Assembly: GCA_026986885.1 (NCBI GenBank) | Contig: JALSNT010000288.1 | Span: 1-11,758 of the forward strand | DNA from: Desulfobulbaceae bacterium | Lineage (GTDB): Bacteria; Desulfobacterota; Desulfobulbia; Desulfobulbales; Desulfobulbaceae | DNA: 11,758 nt | Reading direction: 5' to 3' | Shown: one piece after another, positions 4,624 to 11,559 of the stretch | Numbering within the stretch: the stretch's first letter is position 1 | Layout: every line of letters begins with the position of its first letter | Made by a program: the position numbers and the translations under genes | The notes under the pieces: model-generated | The model's database searches: none | Told to the model about the DNA's origin: nothing | The model's input: the letters and a program-made list of their open reading frames with translations, nothing else

Positions 4624-6408
4624 ATGGATGCACTCGGCACACTTCAGCGTACACATAACTGCAATGAATTAGGCAAAGATCAACTTGGTGAAGAGGTTAC
4701 CCTCATGGGCTGGGTACTCAGACGTCGCGACCATGGCGGGGTCATCTTTATAGATCTCCGTGACCGCTGGGGAATAACCCAGGTTGTCTTTAATCCCGAG
4801 ATCAACAAAGACATTCACCTGAAGGCGCACAGGCTGCGCAGCGAATGGGTCCTTGCAGTTCGCGGCCGGGTCGAGGCCCGGCCAGACGACATGGCCAACC
4901 CCAAACTCGCCACCGGCGACATAGAAATCCTGGTCAGCGAACTGCGCATCTTAAATACCAGTGCAACCCCCCCTTTTCCACTGGACGAAGACGTCGACAT
5001 TTCAGACAACCTTCGTCTGCAATACCGCTATATCGACCTGCGTCGTCCCGAAATGGCAGCCAAACTCATCATGCGGCACAAGGCGGTTCAGGCGGTCCGT
5101 ACCTATTTAAGCGATAATAACTTTCTGGAAATCGAGACACCGGTACTCACCCGCTCCACCCCGGAAGGGGCGCGGGATTATCTGGTGCCCAGCCGGGTCA
5201 ATCCCGGTCGTTTTTATGCCCTTCCCCAGTCACCGCAACTCTTTAAACAGATGTTGATGATCTCAGGAATGGACCGATATTTTCAGGTGGTGAAATGCTT
5301 TCGTGATGAAGACCTGCGAGCCGACCGGCAGCCGGAATTCACCCAGATCGACATGGAGCTCAGCTTTGTCCACGAGGAAGAGATTATCACGATAACCGAG
5401 GGAATGATCAAGGCCCTGTTCGCCGCCACCCGCGGCATTGAGCTTGCCCCGCCCTTTGCCCGCATGACCTATGATGAAGCCATGCGCAGGTTCGGCACAG
5501 ACCGGCCCGACACCAGATTCGGCCTGGAACTGATCGACCTTACCGAGGATCTGCGCGGTTGCGGATTCAAGGTCTTTAACTCAATCATTGAAAAAGGCGG
5601 GGTCGTCAAGGCGATCAATGCCAGGGGCTGTGCGACTTTTTCCCGCAAGGACCTGGACGATCTCACTGAATATGCGGGCAGGTTCGGCGCTCGCGGCATG
5701 GCCTGGATAAAGATTAAAGAGGATGAGTGGCAATCGCCGATCACCAAATTTTTCAGCAAAGATGAGCTGGATGCCATGGGCAAGGCCCTGGATGCCCAAC
5801 CGGGCGATCTGATCCTTTTCGGCGCCGATAACCTGAATATCGTCCAACAGGTCCTGGCCGAGCTGCGCCTTGAACTGGCCCGGCGGCTTAATCTTGTTGA
5901 CGGTGATACTTTTAATTTTCTCTGGATCACCGACTTTCCACTGCTGGAATATGACCATGACCGGAAACGGCACACCGCCGTTCATCACCCGTTTACCGCC
6001 CCCAACGATGACCAGCTTGAGCTGCTGACAACGGATCCGGGTAAGGTGACAAGCCGGGCCTATGACCTGGTATTAAACGGCAACGAAATAGGCGGCGGCT
6101 CCATCCGCATCCACAGAAGAGATATTCAGGAAAAAGTCTTGCAGGCACTGGGAATCGAACACGAAGAGGCAGAAGAAAAATTCGGTTTTCTCCTGCGCGC
6201 CCTGGAACTCGGCGCCCCGCCCCATGGTGGTATCGCCTTTGGCGTCGACCGGCTGATGATGCTCCTCACCGGCTCCGACTCCATCCGCGACGTCATTGCC
6301 TTCCCCAAGACCCAGAAGGCAACCTGTCCGTTAACCGATGCCCCGGCGCCGGTTTCCAGAAAACAGCTGACCGAACTCTCTCTGCGGCCGGACTGGAAGG
6401 AAAGATAA
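4624..6408 (+). CDS. aspS: Aspartyl-tRNA synthetase, bacterial type, possibly non-discriminating
   Basis: A 594-residue class II synthetase of bacterial length. Order of parts: N-terminal OB-fold anticodon-binding domain (about 1-110), catalytic core with [11 protein letters not shown] (134-144) and the flexible-loop region [15 protein letters not shown] (177-191), motif 2 [18 protein letters not shown] (226-243), the bacterial GAD insertion (roughly 290-430) and motif 3 GIAFGVDR (536-543). It attaches Asp to tRNA-Asp. In the OB fold the segment RRRDHGG has His at residue 37, aligning with His31 of the Pseudomonas aeruginosa enzyme (recalled, not computed), which also charges tRNA-Asn. E. coli has Leu there. 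This favours a non-discriminating enzyme but is not proof. GGAG lies 10 bases before the ATG. It is transcribed with hisS and converges on the gene at 6503, with a tandem repeat filling the gap. Confidence 0.97.
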
Positions 6409-6420
6409 AGAGGTAACCGA

Positions 6421-6497
6421 CGATCAAGCGATCAAACGATCAAACGATCAAGCGTTTAAGTGTTCAAGCGTTTAAGCGTTTGATCGCTTAAACGTTT
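6421..6497. repeat. Tandem array of 8-base units forming an imperfect inverted repeat
   Basis: From 6421 the sequence can be cut every eight bases without a slip into nine units plus a partial tenth. The consensus is about CGNTYAAR: CGATCAAG, CGATCAAA twice, CGATCAAG, CGTTTAAG, TGTTCAAG, CGTTTAAG, CGTTTGAT, CGCTTAAA, CGTTT. The left half is the CGATCAA type, the right half the CGTTTAA type, so the halves are partly complementary: AAGCGATCAAACG (6427-6439) pairs perfectly with CGTTTGATCGCTT (6477-6489). It lies between converging stop codons (aspS at 6408, HMA gene at 6503), where a folded 3' end could act in both directions. There is no T tract of terminator length. Confidence 0.85.
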
Positions 6498-6502
6498 CTC
6501 CC

Positions 6503-6697
6503 TCATTCTACAACCCGGTATCCCTTACCCTCTATCGCCGCCCTGATAACCTCTATGGGTGCATTTCCTTCATAGGCGATCTCGCCCTTATCCAGCTCAA
6601 CCGCTACATTTCTGATGCCGTCAATTTCTTCCATGACTTTTCTGGCAGTTGCCGCACAGTGCGGGCATTTCATTCCTTGAACTTTTATAGTTGCCAT
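6503..6697 (-). CDS. Small heavy-metal-associated (HMA) domain protein, CopZ-like
   Basis: A 64-residue single-domain protein of the ferredoxin-like HMA fold, consistent with a cytoplasmic carrier of Cu(I) or another soft metal. The metal site is GMKCPHC (8-14), with C11 and C14 as ligands. The rest shows the expected pattern: a helix with the hydrophobic KVMEEIDGI, then NVAVELDKGEIAYEG, and a second helix up to the closing GYRVVE. The ATG at 6697 is preceded by GGAGG with a seven-base spacer, so the upstream extension to 6790 that would run into the neighbouring gene is not real. It is the last gene of the leftward block, 43 bases after the nitrilase-RfaE2 fusion. No copper ATPase or regulator is in the window, so its partner and metal are unknown. 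Confidence 0.88.
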   Translation of the reverse strand: MATIKVQGMKCPHCAATARKVMEEIDGIRNVAVELDKGEIAYEGNAPIEVIRAAIEGKGYRVVE

Positions 6698-6740
6698 AAT
6701 TTTTCCTCCGGCACTTCCCCGACAGAAATGCATCTCATAT

Positions 6741-8012
6741 TTATCCTTGGATTTTTTTGATAATGGCGGTTGTTGAACACTGATGCTCAAAACATACCCG
6801 CTCTACCCTGCCACCGGCCGCTTTCACTTCAACGGCCCCCACTATTTTATCTTCCGGCCAGTCAGCGCCCTTGACCAGGACATCCGGCATAAGGGTGGTA
6901 ATCAACCGCTGCGGCGTGTCCTCATCAAAAAGAACAACAAAGTCCACACAGCCCAGGGCGGCAAGCACTCTTTGCCGGTCCTGCTCGCTGTTGACCGGAC
7001 GGCCATCACCCTTGAGCGCCCTGACCGAACGATCCGAATTGACGCCGACAATTAAATAATCAGCCGTACGCCGGGCATGTTCAAGATAACTGACGTGACC
7101 GCTGTGCAGGAGATCAAAACAACCATTGGTAAAGGCTATCCGGCTACCCTGTCGGCGAATTTTTCGTATTTTCCCGGCAACTTCTTCCAGGGAGCAAACT
7201 TTATCAACAGCAGGCCGTGACCAGGGCCGTTCGCCGACACTGCAAAAACGACGGCGCAAAGCATCAAACTCGCCGGCATCAACAGGTGAAAACAACAACT
7301 CCTCATCGCGGCCGGCTTCACCGAGAATACGGCCATCCGGGGCAATAATCATCGAGTGACCGGCCAGGGTCTCCTGTCCGGCTTGTCCGCAACCGTTACA
7401 GGCCGCCACAAATACCTGATTCTCTATGGCCCTGGCCCTGAGCAGTATCCGCCAGTGCTCGACCCTGCTGTCCGGCCATTGGGCGGATACAATCAACAAC
7501 CGGGCGCCGGCGGCGGCATGGCTGCGGGCAATATCGGCAAAGCGGAGGTCATAACACACCAGCGGACCAAGATCACCCTGTGAGGTAGTAATAATACCAA
7601 ATCGCTCACCGGCCGAGATTACTTTATCTTCCTGCCAGAAGGTAAAAAGATGCTGCTTACGATACTTACCGACAACACCGGTGGCGGTCACCACGAACAG
7701 AGTATTATACGGCTTTAAGGAAAGCTCGCCGACCTCCGGCTCTGTTTCCGGCATGGAACCGGCAAACGTCACATCAAAATCCGCTGCTGTTTCTACAAGT
7801 TTTTCCAGGATATCCGGAGTAACCGCTGCTGCCGCCCGAAGATTTTCACCGGTAAAACCGCTTGACCATAGTTCCGGCAGGACAACCAGCGTATCCTTTG
7901 GTAACCTGCCATCGGCAAGTAAGCGGCGAACGGTCGCCAGATTGGCGGACGGGTCGTTCCCCGATATGTGAAACTGGAGAGCGGCCACCTGCGCAAATAA
8001 TTTTTCCGGCAT
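6741..8012 (-). CDS. Fusion: nitrilase-superfamily amidase + heptose-1-phosphate adenylyltransferase (RfaE2/HldE-C)
   Basis: A single uninterrupted 423-residue frame joins two complete enzymes. Residues 1-260 are a carbon-nitrogen hydrolase with the full Glu-Lys-Cys triad: E47 in VVLPELWSSGF, K119 in GKYRKQHLF and C153 in LVCYDLRF. This context resembles Nit2/YafV omega-amidases. Residues 270-423 match D-glycero-beta-D-manno-heptose 1-phosphate adenylyltransferase, which makes ADP-heptose for the LPS core: FTNGCFDLLHSGHVSYL (294-310, HSGH nucleotide motif), VGVNSDRSVRALKG, PDVLVKGADW and CSTTAIIKKI at the end. RfaE2 is usually alone or fused to the RfaE1 kinase. The only in-frame alternative start near the junction is a TTG at residue 252, with no evident ribosome site, so the second enzyme is probably made only as part of the fusion. 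GGAG lies eight bases before the ATG, whose A is the last base of the upstream TAA (TAATG), implying translational coupling to the DVU0298-like gene. Confidence 0.9.
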   Translation of the reverse strand: MPEKLFAQVAALQFHISGNDPSANLATVRRLLADGRLPKDTLVVLPELWSSGFTGENLRAAAAVTPDILEKLVETAADFDVTFAGSMPETEPEVGELSLKPYNTLFVVTATGVVGKYRKQHLFTFWQEDKVISAGERFGIITTSQGDLGPLVCYDLRFADIARSHAAAGARLLIVSAQWPDSRVEHWRILLRARAIENQVFVAACNGCGQAGQETLAGHSMIIAPDGRILGEAGRDEELLFSPVDAGEFDALRRRFCSVGERPWSRPAVDKVCSLEEVAGKIRKIRRQGSRIAFTNGCFDLLHSGHVSYLEHARRTADYLIVGVNSDRSVRALKGDGRPVNSEQDRQRVLAALGCVDFVVLFDEDTPQRLITTLMPDVLVKGADWPEDKIVGAVEVKAAGGRVERVCFEHQCSTTAIIKKIQG

Positions 8013-8719
8013 TATTTTTTCTCCAGGGCCCCGGCAGCCAACCGATCAATCCTTATCTCCCGAAAATTACCCTCGTGATACCAGGAAAAGGACGAGCTGT
8101 CTGTTGACAGACCCAACAGGGTTTCCCGTGGCAGATAGACACCGATTCTGACACATATTTTTAGAGCAAGGCCCCGTACCACATGATCTCCGGAGGCCAG
8201 ATAGGGGAACAGGTCATCAGCCACCCCTTTCTCCTGCAACAGAGCGATACGCCGGTCACAAAGCCTTTCCAGTCCCCAGAGTACTCCTCTCTGCAGGCCT
8301 TCATGCTCAAGAAAGTTGCCGTCCTGTTCCAGCTCAGGGCCATCCGGACGAATATAAGAGACAAGCATGTGAACATATTCACGGGCCAGTCCTTCATGGC
8401 AGTGCATGATCTCGGCCATGGACTCGGGCGCCCCCCAGCCAATGCCGCCCGATTCGTCATTTAAACTCCAGAGCAGCCGGCGCATGATGATGCGGGCCTC
8501 CTCCATATCCTGATCGGCAAGCCGGGCAACCGTGACCCCCATGGCACTTATCGCGTGCCAGCGGATCGGTTCATCGCTTCTGCAGATAGACGAAAACAAG
8601 ACATTGACGACACTTTTTGCAGGATATTGCCTTAAAGCGGACAAAATCCGATCAAGATTCGGACCGGTCAGCAGACCAGTAATCTCTTTTTTCAGTGAAC
8701 GTGTTCCCATGGGTACCAT
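8012..8719 (-). CDS. DVU0298-like alpha-helical (HEAT-type) repeat protein
   Basis: A 235-residue soluble protein of unknown function. It has no signal peptide or membrane segment and reads as successive amphipathic helices, as in HEAT-type repeats. It opens with a basic RSLKKEITGLL helix and contains the striking segment LLWSLNDESGGIGWGAPE (about 83-100), which I recall as characteristic of the DVU0298 family named after a Desulfovibrio vulgaris locus; this is memory, not a search. Such proteins usually act as binding scaffolds. The ATG at 8719 has no clear ribosome binding site, nor does the in-frame ATG three codons later at 8710, so the start is uncertain; an in-frame TAA 14 codons upstream limits any extension. 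The gene follows ferritin after 56 bases. Its stop overlaps the start of the nitrilase-RfaE2 fusion by one base, which suggests the two proteins are needed together. Confidence 0.75.
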   Translation of the reverse strand: MVPMGTRSLKKEITGLLTGPNLDRILSALRQYPAKSVVNVLFSSICRSDEPIRWHAISAMGVTVARLADQDMEEARIIMRRLLWSLNDESGGIGWGAPESMAEIMHCHEGLAREYVHMLVSYIRPDGPELEQDGNFLEHEGLQRGVLWGLERLCDRRIALLQEKGVADDLFPYLASGDHVVRGLALKICVRIGVYLPRETLLGLSTDSSSFSWYHEGNFREIRIDRLAAGALEKK

Positions 8720-8736
8720 GACGCAGCAGGCGAACT

Positions 8737-8751
8737 CTGCCTGGCAGGCAG
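8737..8751. repeat. Short inverted repeat before the DVU0298-like gene
   Basis: CTGCCTG and CAGGCAG are perfect 7-base arms around one base; as RNA, six pairs with a triplet loop are feasible. It lies in the 56-base gap between the ferritin stop and the DVU0298-like start, centred about 25 bases before that ATG. No T tract follows on either strand, so it may influence translation or mRNA processing rather than termination, or be incidental. Confidence 0.3.
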
Positions 8752-8775
8752 CGGATTCAGATTACATCCTCTTTG

Positions 8776-9288
8776 TCAGTCACCGGACGCCGGCAGGGTA
8801 AAAGCACGTTTACTGAGTTCAGCGTCAAGTAAAAAAAGACCGGATGAATTATCCTTGATCAGTTCCAGCTTGTCGACAATCTCACCGACGGATGCCTCCT
8901 CCTCGACCTGCTCGGTGACAAACCATTGCAGGAAAATTCTGGTGGCATGATCTTTTTCCTGTTCGGCAAGATCAACCAGATCGTTGATCAGTACCGTTAC
9001 CATCTGCTCATGTTTAAGAATATGTCTAAATGCCGCTAAAGGGCCCTTCCAACTGGTTTCCGGTTTATCAATCAACTCAAGTGTTACCCGTCCTCCCCGC
9101 TCATTGACAAAATCGTAAAATTTCATTCCATGCAGGAGTTCTTCCTGCACCTGGCCCCGCATCCAGGTGGCAAAGCCACCAAGACTTATGGATTGAAAAT
9201 AGGATTCCATGGACAGATACAGGTAGGCCGAATACATCTCGGCATTGATCTGCTGGTTAAGGGCTTTCTGCATTTTCTTTTTCAACAT
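8776..9288 (-). CDS. ftnA: Bacterial non-haem ferritin (FtnA-like)
   Basis: A 170-residue four-helix-bundle iron-storage protein that should assemble into a 24-subunit shell, oxidise Fe(II) and store the ferric mineral. All the ligands I know for the E. coli FtnA ferroxidase centre appear at the same positions: E17 (INAEMYSAYLY), E50 and H53 (QEELLHGMKF), E94 (KHEQM), Q127 and E130 (TEQVEEE). The haem-ligand Met pattern of bacterioferritin was not identified. The ATG at 9288 is chosen because GGAG (complement of 9295-9298) is six bases upstream and MLKKKMQKALNQQINAE is the usual start; the frame extends 21 codons further but those look unrelated. It heads the leftward block and is divergent from the dehydrogenase gene at 9546. 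The symbol denotes family, not proven orthology. Confidence 0.93.
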   Translation of the reverse strand: MLKKKMQKALNQQINAEMYSAYLYLSMESYFQSISLGGFATWMRGQVQEELLHGMKFYDFVNERGGRVTLELIDKPETSWKGPLAAFRHILKHEQMVTVLINDLVDLAEQEKDHATRIFLQWFVTEQVEEEASVGEIVDKLELIKDNSSGLFLLDAELSKRAFTLPASGD

Positions 9289-9545
9289 GGGCGACTCCGT
9301 TGCTGTAAAATTATTGGTGATAATATGTATATAGTATTTTATTTCAGACAATTACACCGTTTTTCGTGGTCTGAATCAGAAAAATAGACCTGACCGGGAC
9401 TGTTTACCGGAAAACATATGCTATCCATTATAATCATCGGTTATGTAATTTCCATCCCCTGCTTAAAAAATGTTGTTTTTTCCTGAAAAACCTGCTTATT
9501 TTCGAGGTTATTCTCGTTAGATTATTCTTCCCCACGGAATCCATT
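9289..9545. promoter_or_regulatory. Divergent intergenic region between ferritin and dehydrogenase genes
   Basis: These 257 AT-rich bases must hold promoters for both directions. For ferritin, the minus strand has several overlapping AT-rich -10 candidates (complement of about 9318-9335) and none clearly best. An inverted repeat ATTAT-N5-ATAAT at 9310-9324, 22 bases before the ATG, loosely resembles the AT-rich half-sites of a Fur box, but it is short and unproven. For the dehydrogenase, an exact TATAAT lies at 9429-9434 without a good -35, and TTGTTT (9473-9478) with TATTTT after 18 bases is a weak alternative closer to the gene. Confidence 0.35.
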
Positions 9546-10304
9546 ATGCAAGAGACTGTCTTAATTACCGGAGCAACGGCTGGTTTTGGCCTGGCCTGCA
9601 GTGAACGTTTTGCCCATGAGGGTCGGCAACTTGTCATCGCCGGCAGGCGTGGCAAACGATTAGCAGAGTTTAAGGCCGCCCATCCGGAAGTTCCCGTCCA
9701 CACCATGACCCTTGATGTCCGCGACCGGGCACAGGTGGAGAAAGGCATTGCCGAGCTCCCCGAGCGGTTCAGCAATATCGACATCCTGGTTAATAATGCC
9801 GGCCTGGCCCTTGGTCTTTCCGGTGCCCAGGACGCCGACATGGATGACTGGGAGACCATGGTCGATACAAATATTAAAGGACTCCTGTACTTGACCAGGG
9901 CCGTTCTGCCCGGCATGGTCAAACGCAACCGGGGCCATATCATAAACCTTGGCTCCGTTGCCGGTAACTATCCATACCCAGGTGCTAACGTTTACGGCGC
10001 CAGCAAGGCATTTGTCAAACAATTTTCAAAAAACCTGCTCACCGATCTTGTCACAACGAAAATCCGGGTCACTAATATAGAACCCGGACTTGCCGAAAGT
10101 GAGTTTTCCATTGTCCGCTTCCACGGCGACAAAGAAAAAGCCGACCAGGTCTACCAGGGAACCGATCCCCTGACACCCGATGATATAGCCGAAATCGTTT
10201 ATTGGGTGTGCAGTGTGCCGCCGCATGTCAATATCAACTGTGTTGAGGTCATGCCGGTTTGTCAGAGTTGCGGGCCGTTTCTCATTCACAGGGACGAAGA
10301 ATGA
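9546..10304 (+). CDS. YdfG-like short-chain dehydrogenase/reductase
   Basis: A 252-residue classical SDR with a Rossmann fold, likely NADP(H)-dependent and cytoplasmic. The cofactor motif is TGATAGFG (8-15), Arg residues in AGRRGKR (32-38) favour NADP over NAD, the structural NNAG is at 83-86, and the catalytic tetrad is N109, S137, Y150 and K154 (YGASK). The C-terminal stretch [16 protein letters not shown] is the form found in the YdfG family, which oxidises L-allo-threonine, serine and other 3-hydroxy acids, so a 3-hydroxy acid dehydrogenase is likely. Because fabB follows after 46 bases, a 3-oxoacyl-ACP reductase role is an alternative, but the YdfG-style tail argues against a plain FabG. 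The ribosome site is weak (GGA seven bases before the ATG). An out-of-phase start at 10213 would overlap this gene and is not the fabB start. Confidence 0.88.
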
Positions 10305-10350
10305 ATCTGCCGCACTATCTTTTATACTGAAAATTACTTTAAACAAACGC

Positions 10351-11559
10351 ATGCGACGTGTCGTTATCACAGGAATGGGCCTGATATCACCGCTGGGCAA
10401 CTCCCTGAAAGAAGCACTCTCCTCCTTACAGGAAGGCCGCTCCGGTATTCGCTTCCAACCCGAGTATCGTGAGCTCGGACTCCGATCCCAGGTTGGAGCC
10501 TTTGTCGATCTCCAGCCAAAAGATCATATCGACAAAAAAATCCTCCGTTTCATGGGCAAAGCAGCAGCCTATGCCTACCTTGCCATGGGTCAGGCCATTG
10601 ACGATGCCGGTTTGCCGGCAGAGCTGGTTTCTCATCCACGCACAGGCCTAATCATAGGTTCAGGCGGCACTTCTGCTGAAAATGTCGTACTGACGGCGGA
10701 TGTCATGCGCAACAGGGGATTAAAGCGACTCAGCCCGTTCATGGTTCCGCGGACCATGTCCAGCACGGTTTCCGCCTGTCTGAGCTCGCCCTACAAGATT
10801 CAGGGCACCTGTTATGCCATCTCGTCGGCCTGTGCCACCGGCTCCCATTGCATAGGCTCCGCCATGGAGCAGATTCAGCTTGGAAAACAGGACATCATCT
10901 TTGCCGGCGGCTCCGATGAGGAGCATTGGACCCAGACCTCAATGTTTGACGCCATGGGTGCCCTGTCAACCAGATACAACGATCGGCCGCAGGCCGCCTC
11001 AAGACCCTATGATATCGACAGGGACGGCTTTGTGGTCGCCAACGGCGCCGGCGTAGTCGTCGTTGAAGAGCTGGAACATGCGCGAAAGCGGGGGGCCGAG
11101 ATCTATGGAGAACTCGTCGGTTACGGAGCCACAGCCGATGGCTATGAGATGGTTGCCCCCTCCGGTGAGGGAGCTGAACGATGTATGAAACTTGCCCTGC
11201 AGAACATTAGAGACTCAATTGATTATATCAATGCCCACGGTACGTCGACGCCCATCGGCGACATGGTGGAACTACGTGCAATCGGCAATACTTTTGGTAC
11301 CGACATCCCCGCTATCAGCTCCACAAAATCCCTTTCCGGACATTCATTGGGGGCGGCAGGCGTACACGAAGCTATTTATTCCCTACTGATGCTTAAACAT
11401 AATTTCATTGCCGGCACCGCAAACATCGACAAGCTGGACCCGGAGGCCCGCGAAATGAATATTGTCCGCACTGCCCGTGAGGCGCAATTACAGGTGGTCA
11501 TGTCCAACAGTTACGGCTTCGGCGGCACGAACGGCTGCCTGATTTTTAAAAAAATATAA
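10351..11559 (+). CDS. fabB: Beta-ketoacyl-ACP synthase I (FabB type)
   Basis: A 402-residue condensing enzyme that extends acyl-ACP with malonyl-ACP in type II fatty acid synthesis. The catalytic residues C161 (SSACATG), H296 (NAHGTST) and H331 (SGHSLGAAG), with K326 (STKSLSG), each sit two residues before the E. coli FabB positions. [19 protein letters not shown] and [11 protein letters not shown] are FabB-like rather than FabF-like. FabB normally works with FabA to make unsaturated fatty acids without oxygen; no fabA lies in the window. The ATG at 10351 starts the canonical [15 protein letters not shown]; the frame is open further upstream but there overlaps the dehydrogenase gene out of phase. 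No Shine-Dalgarno motif precedes this ATG, only an A/U-rich leader, so initiation may depend on ribosomal protein S1 or on ribosomes arriving from upstream. It is probably cotranscribed with the dehydrogenase. Confidence 0.93.

Follow-up and report, generated by a model that had tools for sequence, protein, structure and literature searches.

A conserved fusion of a nitrilase-family amidase with the heptose adenylyltransferase RfaE2 in bacteria related to sulfate reducers

Introduction

RfaE2, also called HldC, activates the heptose that is built into the coat of the outer membrane, and is found as a stand-alone protein or fused with the kinase of its own pathway. The latter arrangement is HldE, a bifunctional protein made of the RfaE1 kinase followed by RfaE2. 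On the nitrilase side, a comparable fusion with a nucleotide-handling domain is the NitFhit protein of flies and worms (PDB 1ems), whose Nit moiety forms a tetramer according to PMC9913352.

The window analyzed in this work is a stretch of 11,758 nucleotides from a Desulfobulbaceae bacterium (contig JALSNT010000288.1). A first-pass annotation had noticed in it a single frame joining an amidase to RfaE2, and knew of no carbon-nitrogen hydrolase as a partner of RfaE2. The fusion turns out to be a real, old and conserved joining of two enzymes from neighbouring genes, present in many bacteria related to sulfate reducers. It is already in databases, and it is easily missed because the public names that we saw give the RfaE2 half alone. 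Searches of an open-access library of papers gave no description of the fusion.

Results

The fusion gene extends from position 6741 to 8012 on the minus strand (the strand of all features given below for the window) and encodes 423 amino acids, with a single stop in its reading frame, at the end. Pfam detects two domains only: CN_hydrolase (PF00795) at residues 9-253 (7254..7988), with 145.3 bits against a gathering score of 23.2, and CTP_transf_like (PF01467) at residues 294-419, with 69.7 bits, also above its gathering score. The RfaE2/HldC profile TIGR02199 matches residues 283-422 (6747..7166) with 201.4 bits against a cut-off of 181.5, and the match covers profile positions 4-143 of 144.

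Homologues were sought among 5.8 billion proteins. A total of 7996 candidates were scored, and 4334 had E ≤ 0.001. This was the search for full-length homologues proposed in the first-pass annotation, and the novelty that the latter attached to the amidase partner is not supported: the best 120 of the 4334 are annotated proteins of 381-457 residues, all with both domains. One of them, P0002, is 99% identical to the window's fusion over its full length. The remaining 119 show 54-72% identity, and all span the domain junction. A frameshift or an assembly artefact at the junction can be ruled out because P0002 and the other 119 homologues run through it.

The window's protein was aligned with these 120 homologues. 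Invariant in all 121 proteins are the catalytic residues E47 (7872..7874), K119 (7656..7658) and C153 (7554..7556), the second active-site glutamate E128 (7629..7631) and, in the RfaE2 half, N296-D300 (NGCFD), H303, G305, H306, K381, G382 and D384. The KGAD and STT motifs of RfaE2 are present as well, and S413 of the C-terminal STT motif is kept in 120 proteins. HSGH, the nucleotide-binding motif (residues 303-306, 7095..7106), had been read correctly for the window's protein; across the family the motif is HxGH. Positions such as 235-251, in the linker, are mostly variable. The view that two halves that look complete, one of them with an E47/K119/C153 triad, lie in one frame is thus borne out by domain matches above cut-off, full-length for TIGR02199, and by catalytic sets conserved in 121/121.

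The absence of a suitable internal start, also claimed from the sequence, was confirmed for codons 253 to 348, where no in-frame ATG, GTG or TTG exists. However, codon 252 is a TTG, and a GGCGAG ends nine bases 5' of it. This TTG is a weak candidate for a separate RfaE2 start as judged from the sequence; leucine occupies position 252 in 63 of the 121 aligned proteins.

Conservation was also examined in a wider fused set of 75 rows. It comprises a 56-row set (the window, 25 of the loci L001-L027, with L018 and L022 omitted, and L081-L110) and 19 added rows (L119-L137). Some rows are copies of one gene: in the 56-row set, the pairs L006/L081, L012/L084, L015/L085, L016/L086, L024/L094 and L025/L108 are the same gene, and other near-copies exist. 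E47, K119 and C153 are each kept in 74 of the 75 rows; W179, H303, G305, H306 and K381 are kept in all. E128 is found in 62 rows only, with Asp in six and Pro, Ala or Lys in seven. Because this residue is often replaced, the amidase chemistry of the members concerned may differ. The 13 replacements belong to a diverged subset of the fused proteins (L025:5923-7218, L027:5977-7239 and L123-L137). In L025/L108 the position next to the lost E128 is a Glu; L027 has no Glu there. The fused protein of genome G084 (L119:301-1617, minus strand) is 33% identical to that of the window over 417 aligned columns. All three triad residues are replaced in it and the RfaE2 motifs are intact, which makes the amidase reaction dispensable in G084.

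In the phylum of Desulfogranum marinum (G006), the fusion was found as one ORF in at least 49 of 395 genomes. All 49 matches were read as ORFs; these have 385-458 residues, and a contig end truncates two of them. The amidase triad is kept in 48 and the adenylyltransferase motif in 49. All 49 scored E < 1e-53, and the same query at E ≤ 1e-53 detected the fusion in 0 of 150 genomes from the phylum of a Methylophilaceae record (G416) and in 0 of 145 from the phylum of an Omnitrophota record (G417), empty results that by themselves prove little.

Seven long frames of the Desulfogranum phylum that matched one half only were re-examined, and none was retained as an amidase fusion. In G054, G250 and G203 the halves are unfused neighbours in another frame. 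Separate neighbouring halves are thereby found in at least nine more genomes of the phylum, the other six being G027, G132, G298, G373, G392 and G410. In G389, G370, G295 and G314, RfaE2 has a DUF2520/Rossmann-like protein as its partner, and the joint ORFs are 424-427 residues long. These DUF2520 fusions, which match PF10728 and PF10727, lie on the plus strand at L112:624-1895, L113:408-1688, L114:424-1695 and L115:442-1713. Their presence in four genomes suggests that RfaE2 is prone to fusion with varied partners. As it stands, RfaE2 occurs alone or joined with a kinase, an amidase or a DUF2520 protein.

Another proposal of the first-pass annotation was that the ADP-heptose supply may depend on the fusion, and a check for a separate rfaE2 or hldE was recommended. 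This check was run in the genomes of 22 fused relatives (G001-G022), and neither was found. Exactly one TIGR02199 match above cut-off, the fusion itself, was present in 21 of them. G014 has two such matches, both fused, on two contigs. The two genes (L014 and L019) are closely related and belong to one metagenome-assembled genome; they probably reflect a strain mixture or a duplication. With 66.1 bits in G006 and 24.8 bits in G017, further matches fall far below the cut-off and were rejected as second, unfused rfaE2 genes. No HldE was seen among the 22 genomes, and a stand-alone RfaE1 kinase scored above cut-off in 19, with open frames of 333-358 codons except in G019 (515). G003 and G007 have partial RfaE1 matches at contig ends, and G001 has none. 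Since the fusion is the sole TIGR02199 match above cut-off in 21 of the 22, no HldE was seen and the kinase mostly stands alone, the ADP-heptose adenylyltransferase of fused relatives is most likely the fusion itself. The proposed dependence is thus supported for relatives, which is the range over which sole-copy status was established.

Other steps of the heptose pathway were surveyed in 27 genomes (G001-G027). GmhA-like proteins were found in 23, above cut-off in only one. A separate observation is that hldD (TIGR02197) exceeds its cut-off in only three; genomes without such a match may rely on a diverged epimerase or make do with D,D-heptose.

In the unfused genomes G023 and G025, TIGR02199 matches of 170.4 and 175.3 bits, below cut-off, lie in a long frame with a kinase, as in HldE. 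Both genomes (loci L030 and L034, respectively) also carry an unfused rfaE2 beside the amidase gene. In G420 and G422, where the amidase has no adjoining rfaE2, RfaE2 lies in frames as long as HldE (497 codons). G421 (L037) has a lone rfaE2 gene and, besides, an RfaE2 match in a 492-codon frame and an amidase at a different place.

Upstream of the window's fusion gene lies a gene of the DVU0298 family (8012..8719), whose stop overlaps the fusion ATG by one base (TAATG); it scores 204.1 bits with NF045662 (cut-off 75). A weak HEAT-repeat match was also seen in this gene. Downstream is a small HMA-domain (CopZ-like) gene (6503..6697; PF00403, 52 bits), for which the ATG at 6697 is a more likely start than the ORF start listed at 6790. 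A total of 59 fused loci (L001-L029 and L081-L110) were inspected; some are copies of one gene, some are cut by contig ends and many have short flanks, so absence of a neighbour says little. The DVU0298-family gene is upstream of the fusion in 30 of the 59, with a 4-base ORF overlap in 15 of those 30, and a ComF-like gene is upstream in nine. Neighbours from window positions 4624-11559 recur around relatives of the fusion. Among 39 loci compared, many of them short-flanked, the counts are 21 for DVU0298, 19 for ferritin, 15 for fabB, 12 for ydfG, seven for HMA and six for aspS.

The unfused relative L030 shows the gene order ComF-like/amidase/rfaE2/pgeF. Each of the two central genes is also found in such a cluster without the other: ComF-like/amidase/pgeF in L040, and ComF-like/rfaE2/pgeF in L037. 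The ComF-like proteins score 112.3, 116.1 and 95.3 against a comF cut-off of 233.55. They carry a double zinc ribbon, and their phosphoribosyltransferase match falls slightly short of its gathering score in two of the three. Assignment of pgeF relies on TIGR00726, with 155.1 bits in L040 (cut-off 141.15) and 135.9, below cut-off, in L030.

Separate amidase and rfaE2 genes are same-strand neighbours in different frames at nine loci (L030, L031, L033, L034, L039, L068 and L116-L118). The frame offset is identical in the first six, and L116-L118 have the other offset. Five of those six pairs overlap, by 8, 17, 23, 32 and 140 bases (an early start codon enlarges the last value), and in the sixth the ORFs are separated by 67 bases. 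Within such an overlap, a small indel could join the two genes.

Phylogenetic trees were built omitting 15 loci (same gene, near-copies or partial), and rows L119-L137 are in neither tree. The amidase tree takes E. coli YafV as outgroup and has 66 rows, of which the 45 fused ones form one branch (SH-aLRT 96.6). The RfaE2 tree (92 rows) is poorly resolved on its own: the free search needs two changes, but a tree with a single fused clade has the higher score and is not rejected (p-AU 0.747). Since the fused amidases are one branch and one RfaE2 clade is not rejected, a single old fusion event is likely, as the simplest reading of these trees rather than a proof. The idea of an "accidental but stable" fusion, one of those advanced at first sight, is the best fit as regards origin, given the adjacent out-of-frame genes of relatives and the existence of a DUF2520 partner for RfaE2.

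The N-terminal half belongs to the nitrilase superfamily, as indicated by a PF00795 score above the gathering threshold and a Glu-Lys-Cys triad in 121/121 proteins. Finer assignment gave scores far below family cut-offs: 118.3 against 249 with the YafV profile NF007757 (E. coli YafV itself scores 548), and 112.6 against 355 with the deaminated glutathione amidase profile NF033621. The unfused amidase of L068 scores 149.1 with the deaminated glutathione amidase profile versus 119.8 with that of YafV. E. coli YafV, which RefSeq annotates as a 2-oxoglutaramate amidase, has all four active-site positions (E, K, E, C) and WPxxR in common with the fusion. Among 120 listed unfused relatives, six bear the name omega-amidase (source jgi) and others are named predicted amidohydrolase or carbon-nitrogen hydrolase. 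Omega-amidases clear reactive 2-ketoglutaramate arising from glutamine transamination, as stated in a review (PMC6302742).

Other CN_hydrolase matches (E ≤ 1e-15) in fused genomes were also recorded. In G020 the fusion is the only one. Those of G001, G002, G010, G019, G021 and G022 sit in frames 486-598 codons long, which by their length we take to be apolipoprotein N-acyltransferase and NAD synthetase. An additional match of 190.5-211.5 bits exists in G004, G009, G011, G012, G013 and G015, and G006 has two (180.3 and 166.2 bits).

One candidate role for the amidase was discarded, that of a glutaminase-type donor of ammonia, as in glutamine-dependent NAD synthetase (PDB 3syt, which ranks 48th among solved chains): no NAD_synthase domain was found, and the chemistry of RfaE2 needs no ammonia. 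As for the unusual sugar amide of LPS that the first-pass annotation suggested as a substrate, nothing was found that ties the amidase to such a compound.

Discussion

On balance, we consider it probable that the fusion is a bifunctional cytosolic protein, joined once from operon neighbours, whose two activities are not necessarily coupled. A small nitrilase-family amidase gene and a neighbouring separate rfaE2 would have fallen into one frame, most likely once, before the sampled fused lineages diverged. The C-terminal half would convert heptose 1-phosphate and ATP into ADP-D-glycero-D-manno-heptose, after the action of a stand-alone kinase. The N-terminal half would hydrolyze an amide in a small metabolite. 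Its most plausible substrate would be 2-oxoglutaramate or another deaminated amide, in a reaction of metabolite repair. Being fused, the two products would stay together, possibly as an oligomer assembled through the nitrilase domain.

A different interpretation, rather unlikely in our opinion, is that the nitrilase domain is kept chiefly because it helps RfaE2 to oligomerise, fold or remain stable, its chemistry being secondary. Nitrilase domains oligomerise, as in the Nit tetramer mentioned above (PMC9913352). The G084 fusion persists with its triad lost, E128 varies, and the amidase half diverges faster than RfaE2: identity to L001 is 62% for the amidase versus 85% for RfaE2, and for L119 the values are as low as 23% versus 55%. 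However, conservation of E47, K119 and C153 in 74 of 75 rows and of W179 in all is more than a mere scaffold requires. The DUF2520 fusions and the triad loss in G084 led us to raise the standing of this interpretation and to lower that of those based on coupling.

One of the latter is that the amidase substrate is tied to envelope or heptose metabolism, in such a way that both halves share a pathway and control damage to the envelope. The adjacency of amidase and rfaE2 in unfused relatives speaks in its favor, as does the presence of pgeF, encoding a peptidoglycan editing factor, in the unfused cluster (above cut-off in L040 only). We nevertheless regard it as improbable: the amidase gene lacks an adjacent rfaE2 in L040, L041, L043 and L053, and rfaE2 lacks the amidase in L037 and others. 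We know of no sugar amide in the heptose pathway.

It is also conceivable, as a long shot, that we are dealing with a Rosetta-stone protein, in which the amidase would sense or clear a nitrogen-derived amide such as 2-oxoglutaramate and would set, or be set by, ADP-heptose production; if so, many lineages of the phylum would have their outer-membrane synthesis tied to nitrogen metabolism. The smallest chance goes to regulatory tuning of ADP-heptose output by the state of the amidase, which would connect nitrogen status to the LPS core through glutamine-derived 2-oxoglutaramate: the fusion does persist through distant lineages with the triad intact, but the phylum also has RfaE2 with a third, unrelated partner, G084 has lost the triad, and linker positions are mostly variable.

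Two practical points may be added. The fusion offers a clear way to find out whether amidases of the nitrilase family work close to envelope sugar synthesis, and deletion of the fusion gene in a study of LPS would remove a predicted amidase too.

Comparison with known systems places the fusion as follows. With stand-alone RfaE2 (HldC) it shares the full-length TIGR02199 domain and the NGCFD, HxGH, KGAD and STT motifs, and differs by its N-terminal amidase; the closest solved chain for this half is 5x9q (136.5 bits), deposited as a putative cytidylyltransferase. As in HldE, RfaE2 is the C-terminal half of a bifunctional protein; however, the window's protein is devoid of a kinase domain, the partner is CN_hydrolase, and the score with the HldE profile NF008454 is 196.9 versus a cut-off of 521. 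The DUF2520/Rossmann-like fusions (L112-L115) likewise have RfaE2 at the C-terminus, a length of 424-427 residues and an N-terminal partner from outside the pathway, in their case PF10727 plus PF10728 instead of an amidase. On the amidase side, E. coli YafV has in common with the fusion the E-K-E-C residues and the CYDLRF, WPxxRxxxW and ARAIENQ motifs, but it is stand-alone and remote, as the score of 118.3 against 249 indicates. The S. aureus carbon-nitrogen hydrolase of PDB 3p8k, deposited as putative, is also stand-alone. NitFhit, like the fusion, joins a nitrilase to a nucleotide-handling domain, but its partner is Fhit (HIT) and not a nucleotidyltransferase, and Pfam detects no HIT domain in the window's fusion. 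The fusion is best seen as a puzzling pairing that is open to test, not as a system of a new kind: next to the kinase, the amidase is a second partner of RfaE2, old, widely kept and without a known pathway link, and DUF2520 is a third, found in four genomes.
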